Shown in pieces: positions 38,882 through 57,530 of a stretch of DNA of 64,000 nt (its first letter is position 1; each line of letters begins with the position of its first letter). This stretch comes from Roseinatronobacter alkalisoli (GTDB taxonomy: Bacteria > Pseudomonadota > Alphaproteobacteria > Rhodobacterales > Rhodobacteraceae): positions 1-64,000 of the forward strand of contig NZ_JAQZSM010000008.1 in assembly GCF_028745735.1 (NCBI RefSeq). Reading direction: 5' to 3'. The notes beneath the pieces were generated by a model, which worked only from the letters and a program-made list of their open reading frames with translations, was not told the DNA's origin and made no database searches. A program made the position numbers and the translations under genes.

Positions 38882-39910
38882 TCATGCGGCGGCGATATGC
38901 GTCATGTCAGGGTATTTCGCCACCAGCGCAATGTCCTGCGCGGTCAGTCCCGCGCCATTGGCGACATTGGCGATAAGGTGACCCTGTAGCCAGATCTGGG
39001 CTGTGTCAGGGTCTGTGGCGCTGAATTGCACCTGAAGTTCCGGCATGGCAAGACGTGCAGGGTCGTAATGCAGGACAATCTGGTCATCCTGCGGGTTGTA
39101 ATCGACAATGGTGACAGGTGCGTTACCCTGTAGCCAATCGCCCAGCGCAAAGGTATCGGCACCGTCCCCGCCGTTCAGATAATCGCCCTGACCGGCGATC
39201 AGAATGTCGTCCCCGTCACCCCCGTTCAGAAAATTCCGCCCGCTGATATCATTGCCATTATGATCCAGCGCAACGCCGATCAGCGTGTCATTCCCAACCC
39301 CGGCATTCAGCGTGTTGTTTCCGGCGCCGGCAATCAGCAGATCATCGCCGTCACCGCCGATCAGCGTATCATTTCCCGCCCCGCCGATCAGCGTGTCGTT
39401 TCCGGTCCCGCCGTTCATATGCGTGGCCCCCTGACCAGCCTGCAGCCAGTCATCGCCACCGTGACCAAGAAGCGTGTCATTTCCCGCCCCGCCGGTCAGC
39501 GTGTCATCAAGCGCACCACCTTGCAGCAATGCGGGGCTGTCCCCGCCTGTCAGGTGAACCGGTTGTCCGGGTTCCGGCTGGATGAACGCATCCGAACTGT
39601 GAATGCGTTCATCCAGATCATCGAACAAACCAGCGACATCCGGCGCGGGAAAGAACGACGGCACGGCTTCCGTTTCGGGCATGTCCGAATCCGGCGTAGC
39701 CCCGAACATGTCATCCAGGCTGTCGCCGGTCCCGCCCAACACATTCCCGGCACTGAGACTTGCCTGCGCATCGTCAGAGTCCGGCGCCGTGTTATACGCA
39801 TCATCCGGGGAATCATTGTCGTGACTTTCGGAATCCCTGGCTGATGCAAGCATGCTGTCCGCCGCAACACCGGCAAGCAAGGCACCGAACAACCCCATAA
39901 ACATCAACAT
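38882..39910 (-). CDS. RTX-type calcium-binding repeat protein
   Basis: A protein of about 342 residues. The N-terminus has a hydrophobic segment ([20 protein letters not shown]), then an acidic linker rich in Asp/Ser. About eight GGxGxD-type nonapeptide repeats follow near residues 120-260 (for example [23 protein letters not shown]). A C-terminal domain with [17 protein letters not shown] closes it. RTX repeats form a calcium-dependent beta roll and are usually exported by type I secretion; a type I export signal is usually C-terminal, so the N-terminal hydrophobic segment is unusual. Start ATG 39910 is preferred over an upstream TTG. The repeats produce tandem DNA repetition at about 39140-39500. 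Substrate, partner and secretion route are unknown. Confidence 0.85.
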
Positions 39911-40177
39911 ACTGTACCACCCCACATGGCAACGAAGACCCAATATTCATTTCACCCAACACCGTAATTATTTCACATTATTCAGGATTCTCACAGTGAC
40001 ATCCGGCGAAAGCACACGGGAATCTGTAGAACTGGTTAACGCAGCCCCTTTAAAACGGGCTTTCCTTGGCGCTGCAAATGGTCTATTCGGCGCGCCTGTG
40101 CCATTGGCACGGCTTACTGGCCTTGCTGGACGACATCCCGGCCTGCGCTGAAACCTACTAACCTACAGGAGATACCG

Positions 40178-40447: not shown

Positions 40448-40475
40448 CAGAACCGAAGGTTCATGGACAGTCCTG

Positions 40476-40505
40476 CGCCCGCCTTGAACTAGGCGGGCGT
40501 TTTTT
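40476..40505 (+). terminator. Intrinsic terminator of rpsO
   Basis: CGCCCGCC (40476-40483), an eight-base loop and GGCGGGCG (40492-40499) form a perfect stem followed by six T residues. It separates rpsO from the polysaccharide/PKS operon. Confidence 0.92.
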
Positions 40506-40676: not shown

Positions 40677-41558
40677 ATGGTAAACACGCGAAAGCTGGAA
40701 CAGCTTTTGAAGCGTTCAGGCCGCAGCGCGGTCACCGGTACCGGACAGCCGGTTACGGCCCCGCTGCGTCGCGGGCTTGCGTTGTCGGGCGGTCCGGCGC
40801 AGCGCTATGACGTTGCGCCACGCGTTGATACAGCTGCCACCGATACGCTGAATGATGCGGCCTGGGAAAACCTTGCACCTCTTGCCCGGGACAAGGATAC
40901 CGACAAGGCGGCGCGCCTGTTCAACCAGCAAGCGCGCGATCCCGCGCTTGCGAAGCTGTTTGATGTGTTGCGCACCCAGCTTATACAGACTTTTCGTAAA
41001 CGCGGGCTGCGCAGTCTGGGGATTACGTCGCCACATGCGGGTGCGGGGACCAGTTTTACCACAGCCGGGCTGCTTGCCAGTTTCGCGCGCCGTGCGGATC
41101 TGCATGTTGTGGGGCTGGACCTGCATTTCGCCGATCCCGGTCTGCACCGATATTTCGAAGCGGTGCCAAATGGTCCCATCCTGCCCGCCATACGGGGCGA
41201 TATTCCTGTGGAAACGCACCTGCAACGCGCATACCCGACGCTTGCGCTGGGCCTGAACCGGCCCGACCCGGAGTCCATTCAGACTGGTGCAGCATTCCCC
41301 GCAGAGGATTTCACCGATATGATGCAGGACATTCTGGGCTTCATGGGGCCGGATTTTGTTGTCTGTGACATGCCGCCGCTGCTGGAAGGGGATGTTGCGC
41401 TGAACCTGCTACCCGGCATTGACGCGGTGCTGATCGTCTCCGACAGCCGCCGGACAAGCGCCAGCGACATCGCGGCGTGCGAGCGGGTATTGCAGGATCA
41501 GGCGGAATTTCTGGGTGTGGTCATGAACCGTGATGCAACCCCGCAGCGGGGGCGCTGA
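40677..41558 (+). CDS. BY-kinase-like P-loop protein with degenerate Walker A
   Basis: A protein of about 293 residues resembling the cytoplasmic CpsD/CapB domain of polysaccharide co-polymerase tyrosine kinases. The expected Walker A (PGxGKS/T) reads HAGAGTSF, with Thr replacing the lysine. Walker A' is altered (VVGLDLHFADPGLHRYF) and Walker B is present (FVVCDMPPLL). The C-terminal tyrosine cluster of true BY-kinases is absent. It probably does not hydrolyse ATP or autophosphorylate in the usual way and may be a structural or regulatory partner of the Wzz protein two bases downstream. The start at 40677 is chosen for AGG at 40667-40669; 40671 is also possible. First gene of a seven-gene cluster. 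Confidence 0.8.
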   Translation: MVNTRKLEQLLKRSGRSAVTGTGQPVTAPLRRGLALSGGPAQRYDVAPRVDTAATDTLNDAAWENLAPLARDKDTDKAARLFNQQARDPALAKLFDVLRTQLIQTFRKRGLRSLGITSPHAGAGTSFTTAGLLASFARRADLHVVGLDLHFADPGLHRYFEAVPNGPILPAIRGDIPVETHLQRAYPTLALGLNRPDPESIQTGAAFPAEDFTDMMQDILGFMGPDFVVCDMPPLLEGDVALNLLPGIDAVLIVSDSRRTSASDIAACERVLQDQAEFLGVVMNRDATPQRGR

Positions 41559-41560
41559 TC

Positions 41561-42847
41561 ATGGGGCCAATTCAATCCCTTCCGGAACTTATGGGCTTTC
41601 TGCGTCGTCGGTTTGACCTGCTGCTTGTTGCGACAGGAATTGGCGCAATCCTTGCGGCGTTTATTGCGTTGCAGACTGCGCCGGTCTTTCAGTCGCATAC
41701 GGTGCTTTCTGCGCGCCTGAATACGGTCTCGGGGGAATTTGCCACCACAGCGGGTGTGCAGAATGCGCCTGCACGGCTGCTGCAACTGGTGGAGCAGCGC
41801 CTGACCACGCGCGAGAACATGCTGGCGCTGGCCGATAAATATGACCTTTTCGCCGGGCTGCCTGTGCATGAGCGTGTTGACGCAATGCGCGAATCCGTCA
41901 CCTTTCTAAGCCACGAGGCGGTGACAATCGGCTTTGCGCGCGACGGTGTCTTGTCCTCGATCATCGTGCAGGCCCGCGCGGATGAAGGGCCCAAGGCCGC
42001 GAATATCGCAAATGAACTTGCCAGCATGATCATCGCGGAAACCGGTGCCGGGCGTGAAGCTCGCGCGCGTGAAACCCTGTCCTTTCTGCATGAAAGACAC
42101 AATCAGACCGAAGAAAACCTGCGCGAGGTCGCAGCAGAGATGCGCGCATTTTCTGCCCTGCACCCGGATGCAATGCCGTTCAGTGTGGAACTGCGCCGGG
42201 CGGAACTGCTGCAACTGACCACGGCGATACAATCCACCGAAAGTGACATTGTCGTGCTGGAATCCGAACTGGCCGCGCAGAACAGTCAGGGCAGCACCCA
42301 GCGTCGGCTCGCGTTGCTGCGCGACCAGCTGGTCACACGGCAGGCCGAGCTTGCCCGCCTTCAGTCGCGCCGGGATGAACTGGAACCCTTCTTTACCCGT
42401 GTGGCGCAGATCGAACGCGACATGGCCATGATTGAGCAGCGAGAGGAACGGCTGCAGGACAGCTTGCGCGAGATTGCGGACCAGATCGTCGATGCCGAAA
42501 CCAATCTGCGGCTGGAAACGGGCCAGCAGATTGCTGCGTTCGAAATTCTGGAACCCGCAACCGCAGCGGAATACCCGATTTCGCGCAGCCGCAAGATGAC
42601 AATGCTGATGGGCGTGTTCGGGGCGGCTGTGCTGGCGGTTGTAGCGGCTTTTGGCTATGAACTGCTGCGCCCGGCACTGCGCAGTGCAGGACAGGTGGAA
42701 CGTGAAACCGGTATGCGCCCGGTGCTGGTTCTGCCGGAACTGGTTCTGCCCGCGCAGCGCAGGCGCCTGCTGACAGCGCGTTTCGCGGGTCTGGCGTTGT
42801 TCATGCTGACGCTTGCGGCAGTCCTAAGCCCCCTGATCCAGACCTAG
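41561..42847 (+). CDS. Wzz/GumC-type polysaccharide chain-length determinant
   Basis: A 428-residue inner-membrane protein with a membrane helix near 20-40, a large periplasmic part with long coiled coils (about 170-320), and two C-terminal helices (about 345-367 and 405-425). This is the PCP2a layout, and the segment before the second helix (EPATAAEYPISRSRKM) matches the conserved proline-rich motif. It would set chain length during Wzy-dependent polymerisation. It begins 2 bp after the kinase-like gene, a usual partner. Confidence 0.85.
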   Translation: MGPIQSLPELMGFLRRRFDLLLVATGIGAILAAFIALQTAPVFQSHTVLSARLNTVSGEFATTAGVQNAPARLLQLVEQRLTTRENMLALADKYDLFAGLPVHERVDAMRESVTFLSHEAVTIGFARDGVLSSIIVQARADEGPKAANIANELASMIIAETGAGREARARETLSFLHERHNQTEENLREVAAEMRAFSALHPDAMPFSVELRRAELLQLTTAIQSTESDIVVLESELAAQNSQGSTQRRLALLRDQLVTRQAELARLQSRRDELEPFFTRVAQIERDMAMIEQREERLQDSLREIADQIVDAETNLRLETGQQIAAFEILEPATAAEYPISRSRKMTMLMGVFGAAVLAVVAAFGYELLRPALRSAGQVERETGMRPVLVLPELVLPAQRRRLLTARFAGLALFMLTLAAVLSPLIQT

Positions 42848-42865
42848 CGCGGGGATGGACGGATC

Positions 42866-44350
42866 ATGCCCAGTATCATTGCTTATGCCGCACTTCTGAT
42901 CTGGCCATTCGTGATTGTGGCCATGTTCCGCAAGATGGCCCCGGAGCGGGCCTTTATCTGGGCAATTCTGGGCGGGTATATGGCCCTGCCTGAACTGACC
43001 GAGTTCAACCTTCCGGTTATCCCCGCATTTGACAAGACATCGATTCCCAATCTGACGGCATTCGCGCTGTGCCTGGTGATGCTGAAAATGCGTCCCGGTT
43101 TGTTGCCCGATGGCCTGTTGGGCAAGGCATTGGTGGTGGTGCTGTGCGCGGCGCCGGTGATTGCGGTATTCTTCAACACTGACCCGCTGGTTTTTGGCAT
43201 GGCGCAAAGCGGACGACTGACGCTGACAAGTGATCACGCCTATTCAGTTCCGGGCATGCGCATATACGATTCCGTGTCGATGCTGGTGCGACAGCTTATC
43301 ATGATCCTGCCCTTCTTCATGGCGCGGCACCTGCTGGCAAGCGAACAGGCATTGACCGAATTGCTGCGCGCGCTGATGATTGCCGGGCTGATCTACTCCG
43401 TACCAATCATGTGGGAGGTGCGCTTCAGCCCGCAACTGCACACCGATATCTATGGTTTCTTTCAGCATGATTTCCAGCAGATGATGCGCGAAGGCGGCTA
43501 TCGCCCCATTGTTTTCATGCCGCATGGGTTGTGGCTGTCGCTGTTCATGGTCATGACTGCGGTGTCCGCGCTGTATTTTGCCAAACAGGCCACCCCGTCA
43601 GACCGGGTGCGTGCCAGCATCATCGCGGTATATCTGTTCGTCATGGTGAATCTGACCAAAAGCCTTGGGCCATTGCTGATCCTGCTGACGATTTCGACGC
43701 TCGTGGTGCTTCTGAAACCGCGTATGCAGCTTCGCGTTGCAGGTCTGATGGCCCTGCTGACATTAAGCTATCCATTGTTGCGCGGTGCTGGCCTTGTACC
43801 AACGGACAAACTGGTCGAACTTGCAAGCCAGCGCAGTCAGGAACGGGCGCAGTCATTGCAATTCCGTTTCGACAATGAAGACCTGCTGCTGGACCGCGCA
43901 GCCCAGAAACCGCTTTTTGGCTGGGGCGGCTACGGGCGGAACCAGATTTTTGACCCCCAGACCGGCGAGATGATATCGATCAGCGACGGACAATGGGTCA
44001 TAACCATCGGGCAATGGGGCTGGGTGGGTTACTTGGCACTGTTCGGGTTGCTGTGCCTGCCATTGCTGGCACTGTTGTGGCGGTACCGACAGGTGCCTGA
44101 CAGTGCGCTTCCCCCGCAGGCGGGTGTTCTGGCGCTGATACTTGGGGCCAGTCTGGTGGATCTGCTGCCCAATGCAACGCTGGTGTCCCTGACATGGCTG
44201 ATCGCTGGCGCACTTCTGGGGCATGCCGAACTGCAGAACAGGCGCAGCCGTACTGCCCAGCTGGAACACTGGCGCAACCTGCCCGGCCGCGCCGGGCTTA
44301 TGTCCACGGCGCGCACATCCGAACCCGCCCTGAAGCGCAGCTTCCTGTAA
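42866..44350 (+). CDS. O-antigen polymerase/ligase-like membrane protein (Wzy_C type)
   Basis: A 494-residue polytopic protein with roughly eleven hydrophobic helices and one larger periplasmic loop between about residues 290 and 380. The loop contains SQRSQERAQSLQFRFDNEDLLLDRAAQKPLFGWGGYGRNQ, a pattern seen in Wzy_C/WaaL proteins (R...GWG.G). It could polymerise or ligate lipid-linked sugars. It starts 18 bp after wzz. The next gene, the PKS, follows after 39 bp on the same strand without a terminator. Polymerase versus ligase cannot be decided. Confidence 0.75.
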   Translation: MPSIIAYAALLIWPFVIVAMFRKMAPERAFIWAILGGYMALPELTEFNLPVIPAFDKTSIPNLTAFALCLVMLKMRPGLLPDGLLGKALVVVLCAAPVIAVFFNTDPLVFGMAQSGRLTLTSDHAYSVPGMRIYDSVSMLVRQLIMILPFFMARHLLASEQALTELLRALMIAGLIYSVPIMWEVRFSPQLHTDIYGFFQHDFQQMMREGGYRPIVFMPHGLWLSLFMVMTAVSALYFAKQATPSDRVRASIIAVYLFVMVNLTKSLGPLLILLTISTLVVLLKPRMQLRVAGLMALLTLSYPLLRGAGLVPTDKLVELASQRSQERAQSLQFRFDNEDLLLDRAAQKPLFGWGGYGRNQIFDPQTGEMISISDGQWVITIGQWGWVGYLALFGLLCLPLLALLWRYRQVPDSALPPQAGVLALILGASLVDLLPNATLVSLTWLIAGALLGHAELQNRRSRTAQLEHWRNLPGRAGLMSTARTSEPALKRSFL

Positions 44351-44389
44351 GGGCTGAAAACACGACCGTAATTGAAAAGCGTATATATC

Positions 44390-47300
44390 ATGAGTGACCT
44401 ACCCGACCAGTTCAGTGAAAACGACATTGCCATTATCGGCATGGCCGCGCATTTGCCGGGCGCCCGATCCGTGGTCGAATTCTGGGATAACCTGCGCGCA
44501 GGTCGCAGCGCCATTCGCCGCCTGAGCGAAGCCGAGCTTCTGGCCGCCGGGGAACATGGCGCAATGCTGCGCAAACCCAATTATGTGCCCCATGCCGCAA
44601 CCCTTGATAATTTCGCGGAATTCGACCCCGATTTCTTCGGCTTCTCGCCCAAGGAAGCCGCGATTCTGGACCCGCAGCACCGGCAGTTCCTGGAAGTCGC
44701 CTGGGAAGCGTTCGAGGATGCGGGCCACCCGCCCGCCGCATTCGGCGGTCCTGTCGGGGTGTTTTCGGGCTGCGGCATGGGCAGCTATTTCTTTTTCAAC
44801 CTGTGTTCCAATCCGCATCTGGTGGATGATGTGGGCATGTTCCTGTTGCGCCATACCGGCAATGACAAGGATTTCCTGGCCACCCGCGTCAGTCATATTT
44901 TCGACCTGCGCGGCCCGTCGGTCAATGTGCAGACGGCCTGTTCCACATCGCTTGTGGCGGTGCATTATGCGGTGCAATCCCTGCTGACAGGGGAATGCGA
45001 CATGGCGCTTGCCGGGGGGGTAACAATCGAATTGCCCCATGGGCGGGGGTATCTGTTCAAGGAAAACGAAATCCTGTCGCCTGACGGGGAATGCCACGCC
45101 TTTGACCACCGCGCGCAAGGTACGGTTTTCGGGTCCGGTGCGGGGGCTGTGGTGCTGCGCCGCCTGTCCGATGCGCTGGCGGATGGCGACCGCATCATTG
45201 CAGTCATCAAGGGCAGCGCCGTCAATAACGATGGCGCGGCCAAGGCGGGCTATCTGGCCCCATCTGTCGAAGGACAGGCCGCCGCCGTGGCAGAGGCTCA
45301 TCACGTTGCAGGCGTGTCCGCAGACAGCGTGTCCTATATCGAATGCCATGGTACGGGCACCTATCTGGGTGATCCGATCGAAATTGCCGCCCTGACACAG
45401 GCATTTGCGGCGACAACCGACAAGACCGGCTTTTGCCGGATCGGGTCGGTCAAGACCAATATCGGCCATCTGGATACTGCCGCAGGTGTGGCCAGCCTGA
45501 TCAAGGTGGCATCCGCCCTGCAGCATCGCGAACTGCCCCCCAGCCTTGGGTATGAAGCGCCCAATCCCGCGATTGATTTTGATGCGACCCCGTTCGTGGT
45601 GAATGATCGCCTGACACCGTGGCAGGGCGATGGCCCGCTGCGCGCAGGGGTCAATTCGCTGGGTGTGGGTGGTACCAATGCTCATGTCATCCTGCAGGAA
45701 GCGCCGCCCCGCCCGCCATCGGGTGCAAGCGACTGGCCCTTCCAGCTTCTGACCCTGTCGGCGCGTAGCAAACCCGCGCTGGATGACGCCGCGCGTAACC
45801 TTGCCACCCATCTGCGCGCACATCCCGGCCAACCGCTGGCTGATGTGGCCTTTACCTTGCGCGAAGGGCGCACTGCATTTGCCCAGCGTCGCATTGTTGT
45901 GGCCGAAACCCATGAAGACGCCGCCACCCTGCTGGATGCGGAAAACCCCGGCCGCGTGTTCACCCATACTGCGCTGGACAACCCCGACATGGTGTTCATG
46001 TTCCCCGGCGGAGGCGCGCAATATGCCGGTATGGCGCGCGATCTTTATGAAACCGAACCCGTTTTTGCCGAATGGATGGATCGCGGGCTGGCCCATCTGC
46101 AACCGAAGCTGGGCTATGACCTGCGCGCCCTGTGGCTGCCTGCGCCGCAGGACTTGGCACAGGCGAATGAGGCCCTGATGCGCCCTTCGGTGCAATTACC
46201 GCTGATCATGATCACGGAATATGCGCTGGCGCAGTTGTTCATCGACTGGGGCGTGACCCCTTCGGTGCTGGTCGGGCATTCCATGGGTGAAAACACCGCC
46301 GCCGCGCTGGCAGGTGTCCTGCGGTTTGAGGATTGCATTGATCTGGTGCATCTGCGCGGGCAGCTATTCGATACGGTGCCTTCAGGCGGCATGCTGTCCG
46401 TGCCGCTGTCGCTGGACGCGCTGCGCCCCTATCTGGGGCCGGACCATGACATTGCATCGCTGAACGCGCCCGAATTGACTGTGGTTTCCGGTCCGCAGGC
46501 AGCACTTGACCATCTGACTGCCGCTCTGCGTGCGGATGATATAACGGCCCAGCGCATTGCCATCGACATTGCCGCCCATAGCCGCATGCTGGACCCCATT
46601 CTGGACCAGTTCCGCACCTTCTTGCAGGCGGTGCCGCTGAATGCACCGCAACTGCCCATCATTTCAAACCGCACCGGCCAGCCCCTGACGCCTCAGCAGG
46701 CCTGCGACCCCGAATACTGGGTGCAACACCTGCGCAATACGGTCCTGTTCGGCGATTGCATCACCACATTGGCCGCAAAGCCCAACCGCATCTATCTGGA
46801 AATGGGGCCGGGCAAGGCGCTATCATCGCTGACCCGCATGAACGGGGCCGTGCCGGGGCAACAGGTGCTGTCCGTGCTGCGCCACCCTGACGAAGACATC
46901 GCTGATGATCTGTACCATATCGGCACATTGGGCCGCATCTGGGCGCTGGGCGGGCAGTTCGACTGGGCGCAGATCTGGGGTGATGCGCGGCGCCAGCGCG
47001 TCCGCCTGCCCGCCTATCCGTTCCAGCGCGCGCATTATTTCATAGAACCGGGCAGCAACAGCGCCCCTGAAACGCCTGCCCTGGAACGCATTGATGATGT
47101 CACGCAATGGGGTTTTGCGACCGGCTGGAAACCGGCCTATGCCGATTGTGATATTGATGTCACCCGCGATTTGTCCGGCATGTCCGATACATGGTTGGTT
47201 TTCGCAGATGATGCAGGCATTGCCGCGCCGGTTATTGCGCAACTGCGCGACAGCGGCCAGCGCGTGATCGATGTACATGCGGGCGACACATTCGCGCGCA

Positions 47301-50300
47301 AATCTGCCGACAGTTTCACGCTGGCCCCGGAACAGGGCGCAGACGGGTATGTGCAGCTTCTGCAAGACCTGATTGCGGATGGCGTTACCCCCAGCCGTAT
47401 TGCGCATTTCTGGCTTGCGGACCCGCAGGAAACATATCGTCCGGGGTCCAGTTTCGTACACCGCAATCTGGAACAGGGGTTCTATGCATTGCTATATCTG
47501 GCGCAGGCCGTCCAGTCCGAAAACCTGACCCTGCCGGTGCATCTGACCGTTGTCACCACCGGCGCACAGGCGCTGGACGGCGAACGGCTGGCCTATCCCG
47601 AAAAGGCCATGATTGCAGGCCCCGCCCGCGTGGCGCCGCGCGAAATGCCGGGCCTGACCTGCGCCACACTGGATATTGACACCAGCCGCCCCGCTGACCC
47701 TGCCCTGACGCTGGCCCTGCTGGAAGAGCTTTGCGCCACGCCCGCCAACAGCACCGCACTGCTGCGCGGGCAGCGCCGCTGTGTGCAGGTCATCCGCCCG
47801 GCGCCACTGGCCGATGAATTGCCGGACCTGCCCGAAGGTGCGCATTGGATCATTACAGGGGGTTTTGGGGGTATCGGCCTGACACTGGCAGAAACGCTGA
47901 TCACGCAAAGCGCGGCGGATATTACCCTGATCAGCCGCACCCCCTTGCCGGACCGTGCGGATTGGGACAATTGGCTGGCCACGCATTCACCCGCCGACCG
48001 GACCAGCCGCCGCATTCTGGCCATCCGGCGGCTGGAAACCCTGGGTGGGCGCGTGCATGTCACCTGTGCCGATGTCTGTAACATAGACGAAATGCGCCGC
48101 GCGCTGGACGAGGCGAAGGCCACCTTTGGCGCAGCTTACGGGCTGATCCATGCTGCAGGGCATATCGCCGATGCGCCCCTTCTGGGCAAATCCGCCGCTG
48201 ATGTGGAAGACGTGCTTGCCCCCAAACTGCACGGATTGCAGGTTCTGGATGAATTGCTGCCCGATGGCACGCTGGATGTGATGGTGCTGTTTTCGTCAAC
48301 ATCCACCCTGACTACGCCTGTGGGCCAGGTGGATTATGTGGCCGCAAATGAATACCTGAACGCTTTTGCCCGTGCGCGCACAGCGGGGAAAACCCGTGTT
48401 CTGTCGCTGAACTGGGGTGTTTGGGCGGAAACCGGCATGGCTGCGGACGCCATGGCGGAACGTCTGGGCCAGTCCCCCGCAGTGCCTGCGATGCCCTGCG
48501 CACAGCCACTTTATGATGAGATGGATTTTGACGCCGCAGGCAACCGCCGTCTGACCCTGCAACTGGACACAGGCCATTGGGTTGTGGACCAGCACCGCAC
48601 CGGCGACGGCACCGCCATCCTGCCCGGCACTGCCTATCTGGACCTTGCCGCGCAGGCATTGCGCGCGCATGGTGAAACCGGCGCGTTTGAATTGCGCGAC
48701 ATGTGGTTTCTGCGCGCCGTGAGTGTGGCGGATGGCGGCCCGCGCAAATTGCGCGCCACCCTGACGCGCAGTCGCGAAGGGTATGATTTCACCCTGCGCA
48801 GCGATGTCATGCAGGGCGGAACCACCGGCTATGTGCTGAACGCGCAGGCGCGTGTGGTGCTAGGCAATCTGACCGCGCCTGCCGCGATTGACCCCACCGC
48901 CATTTCCGCACGCTGCCCCGATGTGACCGAAGGGAACGGCCTGCCATCCCCGCAAGAGGCGCATCTGAAATTCGGCCCGCGCTGGCGTGTCATTACCCGC
49001 ACAGCCTATGGTACGGGCGAAGGGCTGGCGCATCTGGCTTTGCCGCCGGAATTTCTGGATGATCTGCGCGCGGGCCATGTGCTGCACCCCGCGCTGATGG
49101 ATCTGGCCACTGGCTGGGCCATGCAGTTGATACCGGGGTATGACGCGCACGCGCTATGGGTGCCGGTGTCGTATGACAGTGTGTCGGTGTTTGCCGACCT
49201 GCCCGCGCAGATTGTCAGCCATGCGCGCTTGCGCGATGACAATGATGCGGGTTTTGCCTGTTTTGACCTGACGCTTGCCACCCCGGACGGGCAGGTGATT
49301 GCCGAGATCCGCCGCTTCACCATCAAAGAGGTGACAGGTACGAATTTCAGCGATGCGCCCCCACCGCGCGCGTCCGAGATTATGCGCGACAGTACCGCCA
49401 ACACCGCCCTGTCACCGGCAGAAGAACGCCTGCGCGATATGCTGGGCCTTGGCATTACACCTGCGGAAGGCGCGCGCGCTTTCCTGCGTGCCCTGATGTC
49501 GGACCGCGCCGCAATCGTGGTGTCATCCATCGATCCGCGCGTGCTGGTCGCGCAGGCCGAAAGTGATGCAATGGTCCGGCCGCAGACCAAATTCGACCGC
49601 CCCGACCTTGGCACTGAACTGATTGCACCGCGCAACGACATTGAACGCACGCTGACCGGCTTCTGGCAGGATTTGCTGGGTGTTGATCAGGTCGGGGTGG
49701 AGGATAACTTCTTCGACCTTGGCGGGCATTCACTGATTGCGGTGCGCCTGTTTGCACAGGTGAAGAAAGCCTATCATGTGGATTTCCCGATTTCCGTGCT
49801 GTTTCAGGCCCCCACCATCGCGTCCTGCGCGGCAATGATTGCCGAACAGACCGGGCTGGACCCTGACGCGGACACCGCCCAGGCGGACACGGACCAGCCC
49901 GCACGCCCAAGGTTTACCCATCTGGTGCCCATGCATGACCGCGATTCCGGCACGCAAACGCCGTTTTTCCTTGTGGCGGGGATGTTCGGGAATGTGCTGA
50001 ACCTGCGCCATCTTGCGTTGTTGATGGGGCGTGACCGGCCGTTTTACGGGCTGCAGGCGCGCGGGCTTCTGGGCGGGGATGCCCCGCATGACCGGATTGA
50101 AGATGCAGCCCGCGATTATATTGCCGAAATGCGGCAGGTGCAGCCGCATGGCCCCTATATGCTGGGCGGATTTTCGGGGGGCGGGATTGTCGCCTATGAA
50201 ATTGCCCGCCAACTGGAATCCGCAGGTGAAAAGGTGGATATGGTCGTGTTGCTGGACACGCCGCTGCCGCTGCGCCCCGGTTTGTCCCGCACCGACAAGG

Positions 50301-50737
50301 CCCTGATGAAACTGGCCGAATTGCGCCGCAAGGGGCCGGGCTATGTTGTCGAATGGTGGCGCGGGCGACAGGACTGGAAACGCCATCTGGCCGCTGGCCC
50401 TGCCGCTGACAGCGATGATGCGTTCCACAACACCGCGATCGAGGCCGCCTTTCGCCACGCGGTCGGCGCTTATCAGGTGCAACCATGGGATGGCAATCTG
50501 GTGTTGTTCCGCCCGCCGCTGGACCGTCACTGGAAAGTGTCGGGCGGCAACTGGGTCAGCAGCCAGCGTGAATATGTCTTTGCCGATAATGACTGGACCC
50601 GCTACGCCCCCAATCTGCGCGTGATAGAGGTGCCGGGCGACCATGACAGCATGGTTCTTGAACCCAATGTCCGCGTTCTGGCGTCAAGATTGCGGGCGCT
50701 GATGCCCGAAACCCACATGAAACAAGCAGCCGAGTGA
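44390..50737 (+). CDS. Type I polyketide synthase module KS-AT-KR-DH-ACP-TE
   Basis: A 2115-residue single-module PKS. The ketosynthase (about 10-430) has the Cys184-His320-His360 triad. The acyltransferase (about 540-850) has GHSMGE with Ser631 and His730; the specificity motif reads IAAH, neither HAFH nor YASH. A structural KR half and catalytic KR (about 950-1370) show GGFGGIG and Tyr1316. A dehydratase (about 1390-1660) has His1402 and Asp1571. The ACP serine is Ser1781 (LGGHSL) and the thioesterase has Ser1929 (GGFSGGG) and His2085. KR precedes DH, the reverse of the canonical order. Start ATG 44390 has a weak ribosome binding site; TTG 44372 is possible. It should make an alpha,beta-unsaturated unit and release it. 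Its starter probably comes from the NRPS protein encoded two genes downstream. Confidence 0.9.
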   Translation: MSDLPDQFSENDIAIIGMAAHLPGARSVVEFWDNLRAGRSAIRRLSEAELLAAGEHGAMLRKPNYVPHAATLDNFAEFDPDFFGFSPKEAAILDPQHRQFLEVAWEAFEDAGHPPAAFGGPVGVFSGCGMGSYFFFNLCSNPHLVDDVGMFLLRHTGNDKDFLATRVSHIFDLRGPSVNVQTACSTSLVAVHYAVQSLLTGECDMALAGGVTIELPHGRGYLFKENEILSPDGECHAFDHRAQGTVFGSGAGAVVLRRLSDALADGDRIIAVIKGSAVNNDGAAKAGYLAPSVEGQAAAVAEAHHVAGVSADSVSYIECHGTGTYLGDPIEIAALTQAFAATTDKTGFCRIGSVKTNIGHLDTAAGVASLIKVASALQHRELPPSLGYEAPNPAIDFDATPFVVNDRLTPWQGDGPLRAGVNSLGVGGTNAHVILQEAPPRPPSGASDWPFQLLTLSARSKPALDDAARNLATHLRAHPGQPLADVAFTLREGRTAFAQRRIVVAETHEDAATLLDAENPGRVFTHTALDNPDMVFMFPGGGAQYAGMARDLYETEPVFAEWMDRGLAHLQPKLGYDLRALWLPAPQDLAQANEALMRPSVQLPLIMITEYALAQLFIDWGVTPSVLVGHSMGENTAAALAGVLRFEDCIDLVHLRGQLFDTVPSGGMLSVPLSLDALRPYLGPDHDIASLNAPELTVVSGPQAALDHLTAALRADDITAQRIAIDIAAHSRMLDPILDQFRTFLQAVPLNAPQLPIISNRTGQPLTPQQACDPEYWVQHLRNTVLFGDCITTLAAKPNRIYLEMGPGKALSSLTRMNGAVPGQQVLSVLRHPDEDIADDLYHIGTLGRIWALGGQFDWAQIWGDARRQRVRLPAYPFQRAHYFIEPGSNSAPETPALERIDDVTQWGFATGWKPAYADCDIDVTRDLSGMSDTWLVFADDAGIAAPVIAQLRDSGQRVIDVHAGDTFARKSADSFTLAPEQGADGYVQLLQDLIADGVTPSRIAHFWLADPQETYRPGSSFVHRNLEQGFYALLYLAQAVQSENLTLPVHLTVVTTGAQALDGERLAYPEKAMIAGPARVAPREMPGLTCATLDIDTSRPADPALTLALLEELCATPANSTALLRGQRRCVQVIRPAPLADELPDLPEGAHWIITGGFGGIGLTLAETLITQSAADITLISRTPLPDRADWDNWLATHSPADRTSRRILAIRRLETLGGRVHVTCADVCNIDEMRRALDEAKATFGAAYGLIHAAGHIADAPLLGKSAADVEDVLAPKLHGLQVLDELLPDGTLDVMVLFSSTSTLTTPVGQVDYVAANEYLNAFARARTAGKTRVLSLNWGVWAETGMAADAMAERLGQSPAVPAMPCAQPLYDEMDFDAAGNRRLTLQLDTGHWVVDQHRTGDGTAILPGTAYLDLAAQALRAHGETGAFELRDMWFLRAVSVADGGPRKLRATLTRSREGYDFTLRSDVMQGGTTGYVLNAQARVVLGNLTAPAAIDPTAISARCPDVTEGNGLPSPQEAHLKFGPRWRVITRTAYGTGEGLAHLALPPEFLDDLRAGHVLHPALMDLATGWAMQLIPGYDAHALWVPVSYDSVSVFADLPAQIVSHARLRDDNDAGFACFDLTLATPDGQVIAEIRRFTIKEVTGTNFSDAPPPRASEIMRDSTANTALSPAEERLRDMLGLGITPAEGARAFLRALMSDRAAIVVSSIDPRVLVAQAESDAMVRPQTKFDRPDLGTELIAPRNDIERTLTGFWQDLLGVDQVGVEDNFFDLGGHSLIAVRLFAQVKKAYHVDFPISVLFQAPTIASCAAMIAEQTGLDPDADTAQADTDQPARPRFTHLVPMHDRDSGTQTPFFLVAGMFGNVLNLRHLALLMGRDRPFYGLQARGLLGGDAPHDRIEDAARDYIAEMRQVQPHGPYMLGGFSGGGIVAYEIARQLESAGEKVDMVVLLDTPLPLRPGLSRTDKALMKLAELRRKGPGYVVEWWRGRQDWKRHLAAGPAADSDDAFHNTAIEAAFRHAVGAYQVQPWDGNLVLFRPPLDRHWKVSGGNWVSSQREYVFADNDWTRYAPNLRVIEVPGDHDSMVLEPNVRVLASRLRALMPETHMKQAAE

Positions 50738-50742
50738 AATGT

Positions 50743-51714
50743 ATGAGTGCCACTGTCCTGACCGTTATCGTCAATTACAAAAGCGCCGAAATGGCGCTGA
50801 AATCGGCACAGGCCGCAGAGCGCGCCATGGCTGGCATTGATGGCGCGATCACCATTGTCGATAATGACAGTCAGGACGGGTCATATGACTATCTGCGCGA
50901 CCATACAGGCGGCATGCCGCGGGTTCAGGTGCTGCAATCGGGCCATAACGGGGGGTTCGGTTCGGGCAATAACATTGCCATCCGTGGGGGCCTGCCCGAC
51001 GGGCGGCAGCCTGATTTCATTTATCTTCTGAACCCTGATGCCTTTCCCGATGCAGATGCCATAACGCTGCTGCGTGAACATTTGCTGCAAAACCCGCAGA
51101 CAGGTTTTGTGGGCAGCGCTGTCGAAGGCGAAGATGGCACCCCGCATGAAGTGGCATTCCGCTTTCCCTCCGTCTGGTCAGAGTTTGAGGCCGCTGCGAA
51201 TACCGGCATCATTACCAGAATGCTGTACAAATACCGCGTTCCTGTCGGGTTTCCGCAAAGCACCTGCCGCGTGGATTGGTGCACGGGGGCCAGTGTGATG
51301 TTTCGCCGCGCCACGCTGGACCAGATCGGGCTGTTTGACGAAACCTTCTTCCTGTATTTTGAAGAAACGGAACTGTGTCACAGGGCATGGGCGGCTGGCT
51401 GGGGTGGCGCATATCTGCCGCAGGCGAAAGTCATGCATATCGGGTCGGCGTCAACCGGTATGCAGCAATGGACCCGCGTGCCGCGCTACTGGTTTGACTC
51501 GCGCGCGCATTATTTCCGCAAGACAGGCGGGGCCGGGTATCTGGTGCTGGCGACGTTGTCGTATATGCTGGGCGCGTCAATCTGGAAGCTGCGGCGCGTC
51601 GTTGAACGAAAAGAGGATAGAATTCCGCCACATTTTCTCCGTGATCTTGTGGCATGTACGTTTCAAACCCTGATGCCGGGCGCGGCGGCCACTCGGGGGC
51701 GGGCGGGGGCGTAG
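50743..51714 (+). CDS. Family 2 glycosyltransferase
   Basis: A protein of about 323 residues with a GT-A fold. The N-terminus [15 protein letters not shown], then [27 protein letters not shown] and LLNPDAFPD correspond to the nucleotide-sugar and metal site, as in rhamnosyltransferase-like WbbL proteins. [23 protein letters not shown] is the usual acceptor-side motif. A GTG at 50734 overlaps the PKS stop (GTGA) and could be the real, coupled start; the ATG at 50743 gives the better N-terminus. It lies between the PKS and NRPS genes, so it may glycosylate their product or belong to the polysaccharide side. Confidence 0.85.
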
Positions 51715-51737
51715 GACGCGCCCTGAAAGGGGTATGT

Positions 51738-54700
51738 ATGCAGTTTTCAAGTGTTGTGATCGGCGATGAAAGTCTGTTGGCGGCATGCAGTGATCAGGTT
51801 CTGGAACGCGGTCATGTGATTGCGGCAGTGGTCACCGACAATGCGCAACTGGCCGACTGGGCGGCCAGCCATGGCGTGCCCGTCATTGCCCCCGGTGCCG
51901 GTCTGGCTGACCGGCTGGCGGGGTTTCAGTTCGACTGGTTGCTGAACATTGCCGGGCTACGTCTGCTGCCGCGTGACGTGCTGGCATTGGCCGCGCGCGG
52001 GGCTGTGAATTTCCACGATGGGGTATTGCCGCGCCATGCGGGGCTGAACGCACCCGCCTGGGCCCTGATGGAGGGCGAAACCCGCCACGGTATTACCTGG
52101 CACCTGATCACGGATGCCGTTGATCAGGGCAATATCCTTGTTCAGTCCGAGTTCGACATTGCGCCCGATGATACCGCGCTGACGCTGAACGCGAAATGCT
52201 TTGCCGCCGGGGTCGAAAGTTTTGCGCAAGTGCTGACCCAGCTTGAAGAAGGGCAGGTAGCAGGCCAGCCGCAGGACTTAAGTAAGCGCAGCGTGCATCT
52301 GGGTTCCGACCGCCCCGCGCATGACGGGTTGCTGGATTTCACCCGCCCGGCGATGGAACTGGAACGTCAGGTTCGCGCGCTTGATCATGGCCCCTACTGG
52401 AACCCGTTGACCGCGGCCAAGCTGCGCCTTGGCCCGCAGCTTGCCTGTATCGGTGCAGCGCGGCTGGTGCCCGGCCATGGTCAACCCGGTCAGGTCGTGG
52501 CTGTGGACGCTGATGGCGTGACCGTGGCCTGCGCGGATGCGGCGCTGCATCTGTCGGGGGTGTTGTGCATACAGGGCGTACCGATCGATCCTGCAGATTT
52601 TGTCACAACAGGTGATATCCTGCCCCCCCCGCCCGACGGGGTGACAGATGCCATGGCGCGCATTGCCGCCGGTGATCAGCACTGGCGCGATGCATTGCGG
52701 GCATTGGCCCCGGCTGCACCGCTTGCACTGCGTTCTGACACGCGCATGACATTGCCACTTGATTTGCCAAAGCTGCCCGATGCGCAGCTTATCACGACAT
52801 TTGGCGCGGCTGTCGCACGCCATTTTGGCGTGTCACGCATTGATCTGGCATGGCGCAACGCGGTGATTGCTGCCGCTGAGTTGGCCGCGCCGGACCATAT
52901 TTCCGGCTGGGTGCCTGTTCAGGTGGATGCGCGCGCGCGCGACGTCGCTGCCGTTGTGGGTGCACGCCTGAAACTGGCCCAAACCGCCCCCGGTTTCGCC
53001 CGCGACATCAGCGCGCGTGATCCGGTCCTTGGCGTCATTTCCGCGCCGCATGTTGGCGTGACCCAAGGGGCAGACATGCCGGGCGCCGTGCTGGTGCTGG
53101 ACCTTGACGCGGGCATGCTGCGCTATGACCCCGAAACACTGAACAGCGCTGCCATGGCGCAGATACGGGCCTATATGACCGCGCCCCTGCCCGCCGCTGG
53201 CGATATCGGGCAGCTGAACGACACTGCGCAGCCTTATGACCGCATCTGCATTCACCATGCGTTTGAAACGCAGGTCGCGAAAACGCCCGATGCCATTGCG
53301 CTGAGTTTCGAAAACCAGTCGCTGACCTATTCTGAACTGAACGCGCGCGCAAACCGTGTGGCGCATGTGCTGGCGGATATGGGCGTTACCCCTGATACGC
53401 CTGTGGCGCTGTGCACGGCGCGCGGGCCGAACCTGCTGATCGGCGCGCTTGGCATTCTGAAGGCGGGCGGGGCCTATGTGCCACTGGACCCCGCCTATCC
53501 CGCTGACCGGCTGGCGCATTACCTGAATGATTCATCCGCGCCGGTTCTGGTGACCGAACATGACATGCTGGACATTCTGCCTGATCATGGCGCGGCGCTG
53601 TTGCAACTGGACACGGATACCCGTCTTGGCGCGGCACCCGATATGAACCCGCAAGGGAACGCCACGCCCGACAATCTGGCTTATCTGATCTATACATCCG
53701 GTTCTACCGGTGCGCCCAAGGGGGTGATGGTCGAACATGGCAATGTCGCCAATTTCTTCGCGGGCATGGACGGACGCATCCGCCACGACCCGCCCGGTGT
53801 CTGGCTGGCAGTCACATCGCTGAGTTTTGATATTTCGGTGCTGGAACTTTTCTGGACGCTGGCGCGCGGCTTCAAAGTTGTCCTGATGGGCGATGAGGAC
53901 CGCATCGCGGTGTCGCATGCGCCAGTGCGCGTGTCTGACAAGCCCATGGATTTCAGCCTTATGTATTGGGGCAATGATGACGGGCAGGGGCCACAAAAAT
54001 ACCGCCTGTTGCTGGAAGGCGCGAAATTCGCCGACACGCACGGGTTCTGTGCGGTCTGGACACCGGAACGCCATTTCCATGCCTTTGGCGGCCCGTTTCC
54101 CAACCCGTCGGTTTCGGGCGCTGCGGTGGCGGCGGTCACCCAGAATCTGGCGGTGCGGGCAGGGTCATGCGTGGCACCGCTGCACCATCCGGTGCGTATT
54201 GCCGAAGAATGGGCGATGATCGACAACCTGACCAACGGGCGCACTGGTCTGGGCATTGCGTCGGGCTGGCACCCGGTTGATTTTGTCATCCGCCCCGAAA
54301 ACCGCCCGCCAAACAACAAACAAGCCATGTTCGAGATGATCGACACGCTGCGCAAATTGTGGCGCGGCGAAGCGGTCGAATTCGACAAGGGCGATGGTCC
54401 GGTCCCGATCCAGACCCTGCCACGACCGGTATCGCGGGAATTGCCCATCTGGCTGACCACCGCCGGCAACCCGGAAACATGGCGCGATGCGGGGCGTCTT
54501 GGCGCGAATGTGCTGACCCATCTTCTGGGCCAGTCCATTGCCGAGGTGGCTGAGAAGATCGCCATCTATCACACTGCGCTGCGCGATGCGGGCCATGACC
54601 CCGCTGATTTCACCATCACGCTGATGCTGCACAGTTTTGTTGCGCGCGACCGCGACCATGCGCGCGAAGTGGCCCGCGGACCGATGAAATCCTACTTGCT

Positions 54701-56264
54701 GGCGGCGGCCGCGCTGGTGAAGCAATATGCTTGGGCGTTTCCGGCGTTCAAGCGCCCGCAAGGCGCGAAAAACCCCATGGATATTGACCTGTCCACCCTG
54801 TCGCAGGATGAAGTTGACGGTATCCTTGATTTCGCCTTCCATCGCTACTTTGAGGATTCCGGCCTGTTCGGCACAGTCGAGGATTGTCTGGAGCGTGTCG
54901 AGCAGCTGAAAGCCATTGGCGTGACCGAAATTGCCTGCCTGATCGACTATGGCATCAACACCGATCAGGTTCTGGAAGGGCTGTTTCCGCTGGCGGAAGT
55001 GGTTAAACGCGCCAATGCCGGGCTGGACCTGCCCGATGATGATTTCTCGATCGCGGCGCAGGTTCACCGCCACAAGGTGACGCATCTGCAATGCACACCG
55101 TCGATGGCGCGCATGCTGGTCGCGGATGACAGCAGCCGTGCGGCAATTGCGCAGGTCAGCAATGTCATGATCGGCGGTGAAGCCCTGCCAGGCCCCCTGG
55201 CGCGCGACATTTCCAGCCTGACCGGCCAACCGGTCCAGAATATGTATGGCCCCACTGAAACCACCATCTGGTCAACGACCCTGCCCAGCACCGGGGGGGT
55301 GGGCACCGTGGGCATCGGAACGCCCATTGCCAACACGCAGATTCATATCCTTGATGACAGTTTGCAGCCAGTTGCGCCGGGACAGGAAGGTGAATTGTTT
55401 ATCGGCGGCGATGGTGTCACGCGCGGGTACTGGAACCGGCCCGCACTGACCAGCGAACGCTTTATCCCCAACCCGTTCGGGGCAGGGCGGCTGTACCGCA
55501 CGGGTGATCTGGTGCGTCAGGGTCCGCATGGCATTGATTTCATTGGTCGTGTGGACCATCAGGTGAAAATCAGGGGATATCGCATCGAACTGGGGGAGGT
55601 GGAAGCCGCGCTTGAAGCGCAACCGGGCATAACTGCCGTTGTTGTTATCGCCCGCGAAGACCGGGACGGGGATATGCGGCTGGTGGCCTATTACACTGGC
55701 AGTCCGTCAGGGGATTTGCGCGCCGCACTGGCAGCACAGCTTCCCGCACATATGGTGCCCGCGCATTTCATGCCGCTGGCCGAAATGCCCCTGACACCGA
55801 ACAAGAAGATTGACCGCAAGGCCCTGCCTGCCCCCAGCATCCGCCAACAACCGGCGTCAATGGCGGACACTGGTGTCCCGGAAGGGGGCGGCGACACGGT
55901 AAACCGGATTGCCGCCATCTGGTGTGATGTCCTTGGTGTTGCGCAGGTCGGACAGGGGGATAACTTCTTCCATCTGGGGGGGCATTCATTGCTGGCGGTG
56001 CAGGCGCATCGCGAAATGCGCGCGCGGTTGAATATACCCGGATTGTCGATAACGGATCTGTTCCGCTTTCCGGTGCTGGGCGAGTTGGCGCGGCATCTGG
56101 ACAGCAAGCAACGCCCGCTTACGCCTGCGCCTGTCACACAACTGCATACGCCCGTGGCAAGACCTGTGGCAACGAAAACGGACGCCGCTGCGCCGTCATC
56201 GGACCGAATGCAGGCTATGGCCCGCCGCCGCGCGATGCGCGCAGAAAGGTCCGGGGGGAAATGA
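51738..56264 (+). CDS. NRPS protein: formyltransferase - C-domain remnant - adenylation domain with inserted luciferase-like monooxygenase - PCP
   Basis: A 1508-residue hybrid of the MupA/Atu3671 type. Residues 1-320 are a formyltransferase with Asn91, His93 and Asp129 equivalent to the Fmt catalytic trio. Residues about 330-500 resemble the C-terminal half of a condensation domain, ending in the NDTA linker at 494, without HHxxxDG. The adenylation domain starts near 509, with A3 [11 protein letters not shown] (652) and A4 FDISVLE (Asp698). It is interrupted at about 735-1095 by an FMN-dependent luciferase-like monooxygenase ([24 protein letters not shown]). It resumes with A5 MYGPTETT (1169). 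The PCP serine is 1417. The ten specificity residues read DILQMGMIWK, near the glycine code DILQLGLIWK. No TE is present. The ATG has AAAGGGG upstream. Confidence 0.9.
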
Positions 56265-56941
56265 TTCTGCAGCAGTTTTCCAGCGCGGATTATGCGCGCT
56301 CCCTTTTCAGCGACACAGTGGCCATGGGCTGGGCAGACCCCAAAGCCCCCATGCCGCGCCTGCTGGGGGATGAGGTGTTGGCGATCGAGCAGGTCTCCGC
56401 CCCGCGCGCGCGCGAATTCGCGTCCGGTCGCGCTGCCGCGCGTAACGCCATGGAACAGCTTGGCCATATGCCGCGCCCAGTGCTGCAAGGCGATGACCGC
56501 GCGCCAATCTGGCCTGCGGGTCTTGTCGGGTCCATTACCCATACTGGCCATGATGCGCTTGCGGTTGTCACCGACGACCCTGCCATCCGGGCGCTGGGCA
56601 TTGACATGGAACTTGCCACGCCACTGGAACCGAACCTGTGGCCTGTAATCTGCACACAGAACGACCTGCTCTGGCTGGCGGCGCTCGGCCCCACGCAACG
56701 CGGGAATTTTGCCAAGTTGTTGTTTTCCGCCAAGGAAGCGGTGTACAAGGCGCAATATCAGATCAGCCGCTGCCTGATTGATTTTCATGCGCTGGACCTG
56801 ACACCCGATCTGGCGACAATGCGTTTCACCGCCATTCTGCGTCAGGATGTGCCGGGGTTTGCGCAGGGCACCCGAATCGATGGCCGGTTCCTGATTCTTG
56901 CCAGTTCCATCATCTGTGCTGTGGAAATGCGCAGTAAATGA
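56261..56941 (+). CDS. 4'-phosphopantetheinyl transferase
   Basis: A 226-residue EntD/Sfp-type transferase that converts apo-ACP and apo-PCP to the holo form using CoA. The magnesium motif GIDMEL and the motif [12 protein letters not shown] are intact. The start overlaps the NRPS stop as ATGA. It presumably activates the two carrier domains encoded just upstream (PKS Ser1781, NRPS Ser1417). It is the last gene of the cluster; I see no strong terminator in the next 200 bp. Confidence 0.92.
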
Positions 56942-57212: not shown

Positions 57213-57530
57213 ATGAAAAGAACCCTGTTGGCCGCCATCCTTTCGGCAGTCGTCCTTCCCGCAATCCCCAGTACCGCCGCCGCCAGCGCGATTGAATCCG
57301 CTTGCCTGCGATCGGACCGGCCACAGGCGACACGCGCGCTGTGCCGGTGCATTGGTTCTGTCGCGAATGAAACGCTGACACGTTCGGAACAGCGCCGCGC
57401 AGCAGCCTTTTTCCGCGATCCGCAACTGGCGCAGGATGTGCGCATGTCCAAAAGCGACCGCGACAACGCATTCTGGGCGCGTTACCGGGCGTTCGGGGAC
57501 CGCGCAGAACATTTCTGCACAGGCCGCTAA
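57213..57530 (+). CDS. Small secreted four-cysteine protein, unknown function
   Basis: A 105-residue protein with a signal peptide (MKRTLLAAILSAVVLPAIPS, cleavage near AAAS-AI). The mature part of about 80 residues has four cysteines (ACLRSD, LCRCIG, HFCTGR), suggesting two periplasmic disulfides. The ATG follows GAGGGCAGA; a longer open frame from 57078 is not supported. I recognise it as the type of short conserved hypothetical found in Rhodobacteraceae but know no function. The upstream 270 bp hold TTGGCA and TGATAG boxes (near 57080-57105) that could form its promoter. Confidence 0.7.
   Translation: MKRTLLAAILSAVVLPAIPSTAAASAIESACLRSDRPQATRALCRCIGSVANETLTRSEQRRAAAFFRDPQLAQDVRMSKSDRDNAFWARYRAFGDRAEHFCTGR

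Follow-up and report, generated by a model that had tools for sequence, protein, structure and literature searches.

A PKS/NRPS assembly line that accompanies polysaccharide genes in Roseinatronobacter alkalisoli and its relatives, and its possible role in decorating exopolysaccharide

Within the first 64,000 nucleotides of contig NZ_JAQZSM010000008.1 of Roseinatronobacter alkalisoli (the window; part of a 172-kb contig in a 4.84-Mb genome), seven plus-strand genes at 40677–56941 join three polysaccharide-type genes to a polyketide synthase (PKS), a family 2 glycosyltransferase (GT2), a formylating nonribosomal peptide synthetase (NRPS) and a phosphopantetheinyl transferase (PPTase). Gene order, domain content and active-site residues are conserved among the relatives of this group, and the PKS/NRPS pair is linked to polysaccharide genes. 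We tentatively propose, with confidence just short of even, that the pair is a dedicated acyl-group assembly line that decorates a Wzx/Wzy-type exopolysaccharide with an oxidised glycine-derived unit; the individual chemical steps, where the oxidation occurs, how many extensions take place and what the acceptor is are all inferred. The nearest named relatives met in these comparisons, Roseibaca and Natronohydrobacter, fit a place in the Rhodobacteraceae (labelled Paracoccaceae in the tree below).

The seven-gene run

The seven open reading frames follow one another with gaps of at most 39 bp or with short overlaps, just as an earlier reading of the sequence (the original prediction) had described. 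Their starts were assigned by eye.

40677–41558, +: kin, BY-kinase-like protein, degenerate (SPHAGAGTS, without the Walker A lysine and without a Tyr-rich tail)
41561–42847, +: Wzz, polysaccharide chain-length determinant, with weak family matches
42866–44350, +: Wzy, O-antigen-ligase-like protein (PF04932, 30.2 bits, just under the cut-off)
44390–50737, +: type I PKS, one module, KS-AT-KR-DH-ACP-TE (alternative start TTG at 44372)
50734–51714, +: GT2 (Pfam)
51738–56264, +: NRPS protein, formyltransferase (FT), half C, A with flavin monooxygenase, PCP
56261–56941, +: Sfp-type PPTase (Pfam)

In gene order the spacings are 2, 18 and 39 bp (21 bp with the TTG start of the PKS gene), an overlap of 4 bp, 23 bp and another overlap of 4 bp; an alternative ATG of the NRPS gene at 51654 would overlap GT2. 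The arrangement exceeds chance, because dozens of orthologs retain the gene order and the active-site residues. The rest of the genome holds one further match to the PPTase superfamily.

In all, 24 terminator-like sites were found, against 16.5 ± 4.2 in shuffled sequences. Several of them lie inside genes, and none of the 24 lies in the intergenic gaps of the run. The strongest is a stem-loop of 10 pairs at 40475–40500 (+), upstream of the run, which separates the operon from the preceding gene, presumably an rpsO-like gene. Promoter-like matches were at chance level (7 versus 5.8 ± 2.4 in shuffles). As far as the sequence can tell, one shared transcript for the seven genes is plausible.

The PKS/NRPS pair stays with polysaccharide genes

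We scanned 60 genomes for an NRPS ortholog, 36 from the same genus (own genome included) and 24 from the same class. The ortholog was found, in one or two pieces and not always complete, in 22 of the 36 same-genus genomes, with 51–82% identity by piece (100% for the own genome), and in none of the other 14 same-genus or the 24 same-class genomes. The seven genes had the same order and direction in 11/11 same-genus loci with sufficient contig reach, and four further loci limited by contig ends were consistent over the part covered. The flanking genes vary among several of these loci. One locus (L043, genome G028) has about 0.9 kb extra between PKS and GT2, with an open reading frame of 307 amino acids.

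The presence of wzz matched that of the PKS/NRPS pair in all 22 same-genus genomes tested (both in 14, neither in 8), the other 14 of the 36 lying outside this tally and that for wzy; in one of the 14 with both (G001), PKS and wzy are seen as fragments at contig ends only. Similarly, wzy matched the pair in 21/22 genomes, and in the exception (G016) the contig begins within the PKS gene. The nearness of Wzy to the pair is unlikely to be chance, because there is at most one Wzy match per genome.

A scan of genome contigs extended this view to other genera. A relative was encoded in 459 of 577 pattern stretches, and the best 80 of the 459 were analysed. These 80 loci are titled Rhodobacteraceae or kin, except for one Nocardioides marinus record (L121), which carries a Sulfitobacter-like copy of the cluster and is likely to reflect contamination or mislabelling. 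As far as the contigs extend, the order PKS-GT2-NRPS-PPTase is kept in the best 80 loci. The wzy, wzz and kin genes shift place and strand: they form the upstream run in the own genus, wzy precedes the PKS gene and wzz/kin lie some 7–8 kb downstream in Sulfitobacter and Ruegeria, and both wzz and wzy lie downstream in Shimia.

Long flanks, with at least 10 kb upstream and at least 8 kb downstream of the monooxygenase described below, were available for 56 of the 80 loci. PKS, GT2, FT, luciferase-like monooxygenase (LLM) and PPTase were all present in 56/56. At least one type of polysaccharide gene was matched in 56/56, at least two types in 55/56 and at least three in 46/56; the types counted were Wzy, Wzz, BY-kinase-like, Wzx, GT4, WecG, PHPT, sugar epimerase and acyltransferase, with two GT2 types excluded, and a match required E 1e-6 over 30% of a query, some queries being drawn from four of the same loci. 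Run on the rest of the window, roughly 46 kb, these queries found fmt only. The wider ortholog loci contain clear Wzx, WecG and PHPT genes, and also acyltransferase 3, epimerase and GT4 genes, the last EpsE-like (247 bits, cut-off 400). The link of the pair to wzz/wzy that had been predicted from the window thus recurs in the genus and in the ortholog loci; homologous loci were also checked for a pair that never adjoins wzz/wzy, and this pattern was not found. Chance neighbourhood is rejected by the co-occurrence of wzz/wzy in the genus together with the 56 long ortholog loci.

Relatives outside the family

A tblastn search of a plasmid collection gave 216 records, 6 of them with at least 80% query coverage, and all 6 lie in polysaccharide clusters. 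We opened 17 records, picked from the best 30 of the 216 and not at random. In 11 of the 17 the pair is in a clear polysaccharide locus: Shinella (2), Rhizobium, Aminobacter, Paracoccus (3), Ruegeria (2), Parasedimentitalea and Deinococcus. The Rhizobium, one Shinella and the Methylobacterium records have no gene annotation at the locus. In the capsule locus of Deinococcus actinosclerus, FT is a separate gene, accompanied by an A-LLM-PCP protein and by a PKS ending in a C domain (138.6 bits) that replaces the TE, which would fit condensation of the chain onto an acceptor.

In a tree of 36 A domains with inserted monooxygenase (A-MOx), the polysaccharide-linked Rhodobacterales and Hyphomicrobiales fall into one group of 29 (100/100). 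Outside it are Methylobacterium with Aliiroseovarius, Nostoc, and Deinococcus, the last on a long branch of unsure placement. The position of Deinococcus outside the group means that the association with polysaccharide genes may have arisen independently or may be very old.

Other members of this set bear on a different explanation, in which the line makes a small molecule that is secreted free, with GT2 perhaps glycosylating it, and the polysaccharide genes are neighbours through a shared surface or biofilm programme. Hybrid lines ending in a TE usually release free products, one Aliiroseovarius record (L153) has an FT-A-LLM-PCP protein and a PKS beside nos genes and no polysaccharide cluster, and four A-LLM proteins that lack an FT match (two from Streptomyces, one each from Nostoc and Burkholderia) have ordinary biosynthetic surroundings, with a polysaccharide gene match beside 0/4. 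We nevertheless regard a free metabolite as rather unlikely: polysaccharide genes accompany the pair in all 56 long loci despite rearrangement, and neither the four-gene core nor the 20 flanking proteins scanned contain an exporter, resistance or regulator gene, the neighbours not having been searched systematically. A siderophore was also set aside, with no sign of one in the four-gene core, siderophore and uptake genes not having been searched for.

The NRPS protein contains an inserted monooxygenase and half a condensation domain

The domains of the NRPS protein, all on the plus strand, are as follows.

51741–52601, +: FT domain, N-H-D triad
52617–53225, +: single subdomain (half) of an NRPS condensation (C) domain, from ortholog profile and fold search
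53262–53903, +: A domain, N-terminal part, to A4
53952–55001, +: inserted luciferase-like flavin monooxygenase (TIGR04020; PuwE-like)
55038–55826, +: A domain, C-terminal part, from before A5
55905–56099, +: PCP domain, LGGHSL

Pfam recognised FT, A and PCP. These had been named in the original prediction, which overlooked both the inserted monooxygenase and the half C domain. The A domain is not uninterrupted, unlike in the FT-A-PCP initiation modules of the LgrA/CongA type: AMP-binding residues 537–750 and about 1129–1391 flank an insert of 350 amino acids (residues 767–1116), a luciferase-like (MupA/Atu3671-type) flavin monooxygenase that matches TIGR04020 of NCBIfam with 474 bits (cut-off 244). 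Read from the sequence and the alignment, the insert lies after FDISVLELF (A4) and before NMYGPTE (A5). Its best match in the PDB is the PuwE monooxygenase (6ket, 355.6 bits), and that of the whole protein is the linear gramicidin synthetase LgrA (737 bits). In 20 aligned orthologs, the monooxygenase was the most conserved of nine measured stretches, residues 561–759 not being among them, with a mean column identity of 0.83, compared with 0.74 in the C-terminal A part and 0.43–0.47 in the half C.

The linker of about 200 residues between FT and A matched no Pfam family, phmmer with single sequences likewise found nothing, and Pfam on the 20 ortholog linkers gave scattered matches only, one member each. 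AlphaFold gives it a confident fold (mean pLDDT 91). A profile of the 20 ortholog linkers matches the C-A junctions of four solved NRPSs (E 1.7e-7 to 1.4e-4), the match being confined to its last 60 or so positions. Foldseek returned 15 matches below E 0.001, namely NRPS condensation-type chains, an X domain and CmnI, with epimerisation domains next; the similarity is modest (TM 0.47–0.58 among the 15 when normalised to the model, rmsd 6–9 Å). We read the linker as a single subdomain, that is, half a C domain. The statement that the line has no C domain accordingly stands for a complete one and fails for the half lying between FT and A.

The Asn-His-Asp triad characteristic of FT domains is intact in 20/20 aligned orthologs, in keeping with the predicted formylation; in a separate alignment of nine rows, one locus (L045) has Asn in place of the Asp and the other rows keep the triad. 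The FT profile scores are 120 bits for FMT, 114 for ArnA and 62 for LgrA, and the fold is likewise nearer to FMT and ArnA.

Glycine specificity and oxidation

The specificity code of the A domain in the window is DILQMGMIW. The 20 aligned orthologs read DILQ-x-GMIW, where position 299 (x) is occupied by M in 11, by L in 8 and by F in 1 and the other eight positions are identical; alignment to GrsA numbering was by eye, and the lysine of position 517 was taken from the A10 motif by eye. In the available part of PMC12283262, four glycine-activating A domains with a monooxygenase (MOX) all share DILQLGMIWK, and the MOX reaction is worded as beta-hydroxylation with terminal amide formation. The window differs from this code by M at position 299, where it has L, the residue found in 8/20 orthologs. 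The codes of the window and its orthologs, and the near-identity with the published Gly-MOX code, thus point to glycine, the substrate originally predicted.

Described relatives suggest what the insert may do. An excerpt of PMC10204066 reports a flavin monooxygenase inserted between a4 and a5 that acts on a glycyl residue, and in solanimycin, as partly available, the insert lies between a8 and a9 and hydroxyglycine is retained. The accessible text of PMC4219810 ties the PuwE monooxygenase, with an aminotransferase, to a 3-amino-2-hydroxy acyl chain. By analogy, glycine would be the substrate, formylated and oxidised at carbon, and the outcome may be either a hydroxyglycyl or a glyoxylyl unit. 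N-hydroxylation to a hadacidin-like formyl-hydroxamate is possible and unsupported, because the relatives of the insert described in these partial sources act on carbon. Althiomycin was considered as a precedent for FT and monooxygenase together making an oxime and was dropped, N-oxidation being assigned to the AurF-like Alb2 in the portion of PMC3445576 at hand.

Because the A domain carries the inserted monooxygenase, a plain 4-formamidocrotonyl product is only one option, and the unoxidised formylglycine starter of the original prediction is not the default expectation. In that scheme, a single extension turns N-formylglycine into 4-formamidobut-2-enoyl, which is then attached to the polysaccharide, and the monooxygenase is inactive or acts elsewhere. 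The intact FT triad (20/20) agrees with it, and the relevant sections of PMC4504003 propose FT-A(Gly) loading followed by PKS extension for conglobatin, with a formylglycine starter modelled on oxazolomycin. We consider it quite improbable: an idle monooxygenase is unlikely since no other of the nine stretches measured is conserved as well, and the A code matches or nearly matches that of glycine domains with MOX.

The PKS protein and the possibility of iteration

The PKS (2115–2121 amino acids, depending on the start) matched Pfam in the order KS, AT, KR, DH, ACP, TE, and no ER domain was matched.

44420–45553, +: KS domain, Cys-His-His intact
45992–46810, +: AT domain, GHSMGE
47843–48430, +: KR domain, preceding DH
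48539–49342, +: DH domain
49649–49840, +: ACP domain, LGGHSL
50036–50332, +: TE domain (Pfam-matched part; GGFSGGG and downstream His)

Motifs were compared in 41 sequences, the window and the first 40 of the 67 long orthologs. All 41 have identical motifs at the KS Cys, the AT Ser, the KR cofactor site and the ACP Ser, and all 41 retain the Ser and the His of the TE. The DH motif and the KR Ser/Tyr motif vary, and only the commonest variants were listed. The order KR before DH is known from iterative PKSs, and more than one round of extension is therefore possible. Extension by one PKS protein, as predicted, agrees with the conserved motifs; that it occurs in a single round had been assumed.

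A one-module PKS of this order with a TE, together with a GT2 between PKS and NRPS, might also serve the polysaccharide by making a glycolipid or a lipid-like anchor or carrier, and the module might work iteratively in doing so. RkpA of Sinorhizobium, a PKS of a capsule cluster, would be a precedent for such a role. The starter comes from an amino acid and not from a fatty acyl group, and the missing ER match also argues against a lipid. This explanation seems improbable to us.

The polysaccharide-type proteins

Of the three upstream genes, two gave weak family matches and the third a match just under the cut-off. Neither kin nor Wzz had a Pfam match at 0.001; kin matched the XrtA-type tyrosine autokinase of NCBIfam with 37 bits and Wzz a chain-length family with 55 bits, both far below the cut-offs, and Wzy reached 30.2 bits for Pfam Wzy_C, where the cut-off is 31.7. 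BY kinases are marked by a Walker A lysine and a Tyr-rich tail. The Walker A site of kin in the window, SPHAGAGTS, has no lysine; among 36 matched relatives, 35 covered the motif, with the lysine present in 10 and absent in 25, and none of the 36 has a Tyr in the final 25 aligned residues, where alignments may end before the tail. The earlier kinase-like label is thus doubtful, and since the Walker A lysine is missing, kin should not be called a kinase. It is perhaps a degenerate partner of Wzz.

A proposed route and its weighing

In the proposed route, the PPTase would arm the ACP and the PCP, the A domain would load glycine onto the PCP, and the FT domain would N-formylate the bound glycine. 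The inserted monooxygenase would then oxidise the PCP-bound glycine, the alpha carbon being the likeliest site, to give N-formyl-alpha-hydroxyglycyl or, after C-N cleavage, glyoxylyl. The PKS would extend this unit with malonyl-CoA, KR and DH leaving an alpha,beta-unsaturated acyl chain, and the TE would release the chain, preferably by passing it to a sugar in the precursor of the polysaccharide. GT2 may assemble or use the acceptor sugar, and Wzz/Wzy would polymerise the repeat.

An acyl group destined for polysaccharide is the most economical reading because the pair stays with polysaccharide genes through many rearrangements, because the four-gene core has no exporter or resistance gene, because GT2 stays between PKS and NRPS in the polysaccharide loci of Rhodobacterales seen, and because the line ends in a domain capable of transfer (TE, or C in Deinococcus).

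Several points weigh against it. The match to Wzy_C falls slightly short of its cut-off, and those to Wzz and kinase-like families are weak. No Wzx or PHPT match was found in the remainder of the window, and candidate Wzx- and PHPT-like genes are on other contigs of the same genome, where their link to the cluster is putative. The polysaccharide cluster of the Methylobacterium record (L146) is weak, and the Aliiroseovarius record has none. Formylation followed by C-N cleavage would discard the formyl group, so the FT and monooxygenase steps fit together uneasily. Finally, the TE might simply hydrolyse.

It is possible, and a little short of probable, that the pair represents a class of polysaccharide-modifying NRPS-PKS lines in Rhodobacterales and Hyphomicrobiales, rearranged in Deinococcus, that make an oxidised glycine-derived unsaturated acyl group and join it to exopolysaccharide or capsule. 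If so, exopolysaccharides of many marine and soil bacteria would bear a substituent that an assembly line has built, and a pair of genes classed by genome mining as secondary metabolism would belong to cell-surface chemistry. Should the glyoxylyl route hold, a 4-oxobut-2-enoyl group with its aldehyde could result, which might cross-link the sugar coat. Our analysis suggests that decoration of the cell's sugar coat by such a line is a so far undescribed route.

Comparison with known systems

LgrA shares the FT-A-PCP arrangement of the NRPS protein, lacks the monooxygenase and makes a peptide, and PuwE differs in being a PKS-aminotransferase-MOx-NRPS hybrid of a lipopeptide pathway. We take MtaG and MelG to be the interrupted A-MOx genes of the myxothiazol and melithiazol synthetases. 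In these synthetases, as far as described in the parts at hand, the A-MOx module ends the chain: the peptide is released as an amide, and a TE hydrolyses the glyoxyl thioester. The module studied here instead initiates, carries an FT as well as a half C, and precedes a PKS; unlike in the MtaG/MelG type, there is no complete C domain upstream, and the TE is on the PKS protein and not after the module. What the myxothiazol and melithiazol synthetases share with it, according to an excerpt of PMC10204066, is a flavin monooxygenase between a4 and a5 and its action on a glycyl residue, which is predicted for the present line.

The loading module of CongA/OzmO, as given in part of PMC4504003, resembles the NRPS protein in having FT, a glycine-specific A domain and PCP without a complete C domain, and in the conglobatin system, as here, a formylglycine starter would be followed by a cis-AT PKS. 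Unlike in CongA/OzmO, the present line has a monooxygenase in the A domain, a half C between FT and A, one PKS module and a polysaccharide context, and none of the seven genes resembles CongE/OzmP of the conglobatin and oxazolomycin systems.

The accessible part of PMC4062626 names a PKS (Inhi_1972) and an NRPS (Inhi_1974) in Phaeobacter inhibens as such, giving no function or polysaccharide link, and the corresponding tags in two other strains are not adjacent. These two genes, two locus tags apart, are possibly the same pair. The part of PMC4359443 at hand makes no mention of it. Among the titles and abstract openings listed from open-licence papers we found no description of an NRPS with FT, half C, glycine A domain with monooxygenase and PCP together with a KS-AT-KR-DH-ACP-TE partner, nor of the steady presence of the PKS/NRPS pair in polysaccharide loci. 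All the domain types are already known; their combination and the polysaccharide setting are apparently not described.

Further genes at these loci

A protein of 845 amino acids without a Pfam or NCBIfam match (L123:16246–18783 +; L142:41178–42704) occurs in 28 of the 80 loci and is partly similar (31%) to a protein of the Shinella locus. Paracoccus sp. Arc7-R13 (L143) has a further large NRPS gene at 1–2555 in the same polysaccharide locus.

Two other genes lie near the run in the window.

57213–57530, +: small Cys-containing protein with a signal-peptide-like start, of uncertain membership in the cluster
38882–39943, −: RTX calcium-binding repeat protein, upstream of the cluster

The small protein with several Cys residues directly follows the PPTase gene in 13/80 loci, close relatives only. 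Calcium-binding proteins are annotated also in two Paracoccus loci (L143 and L158).

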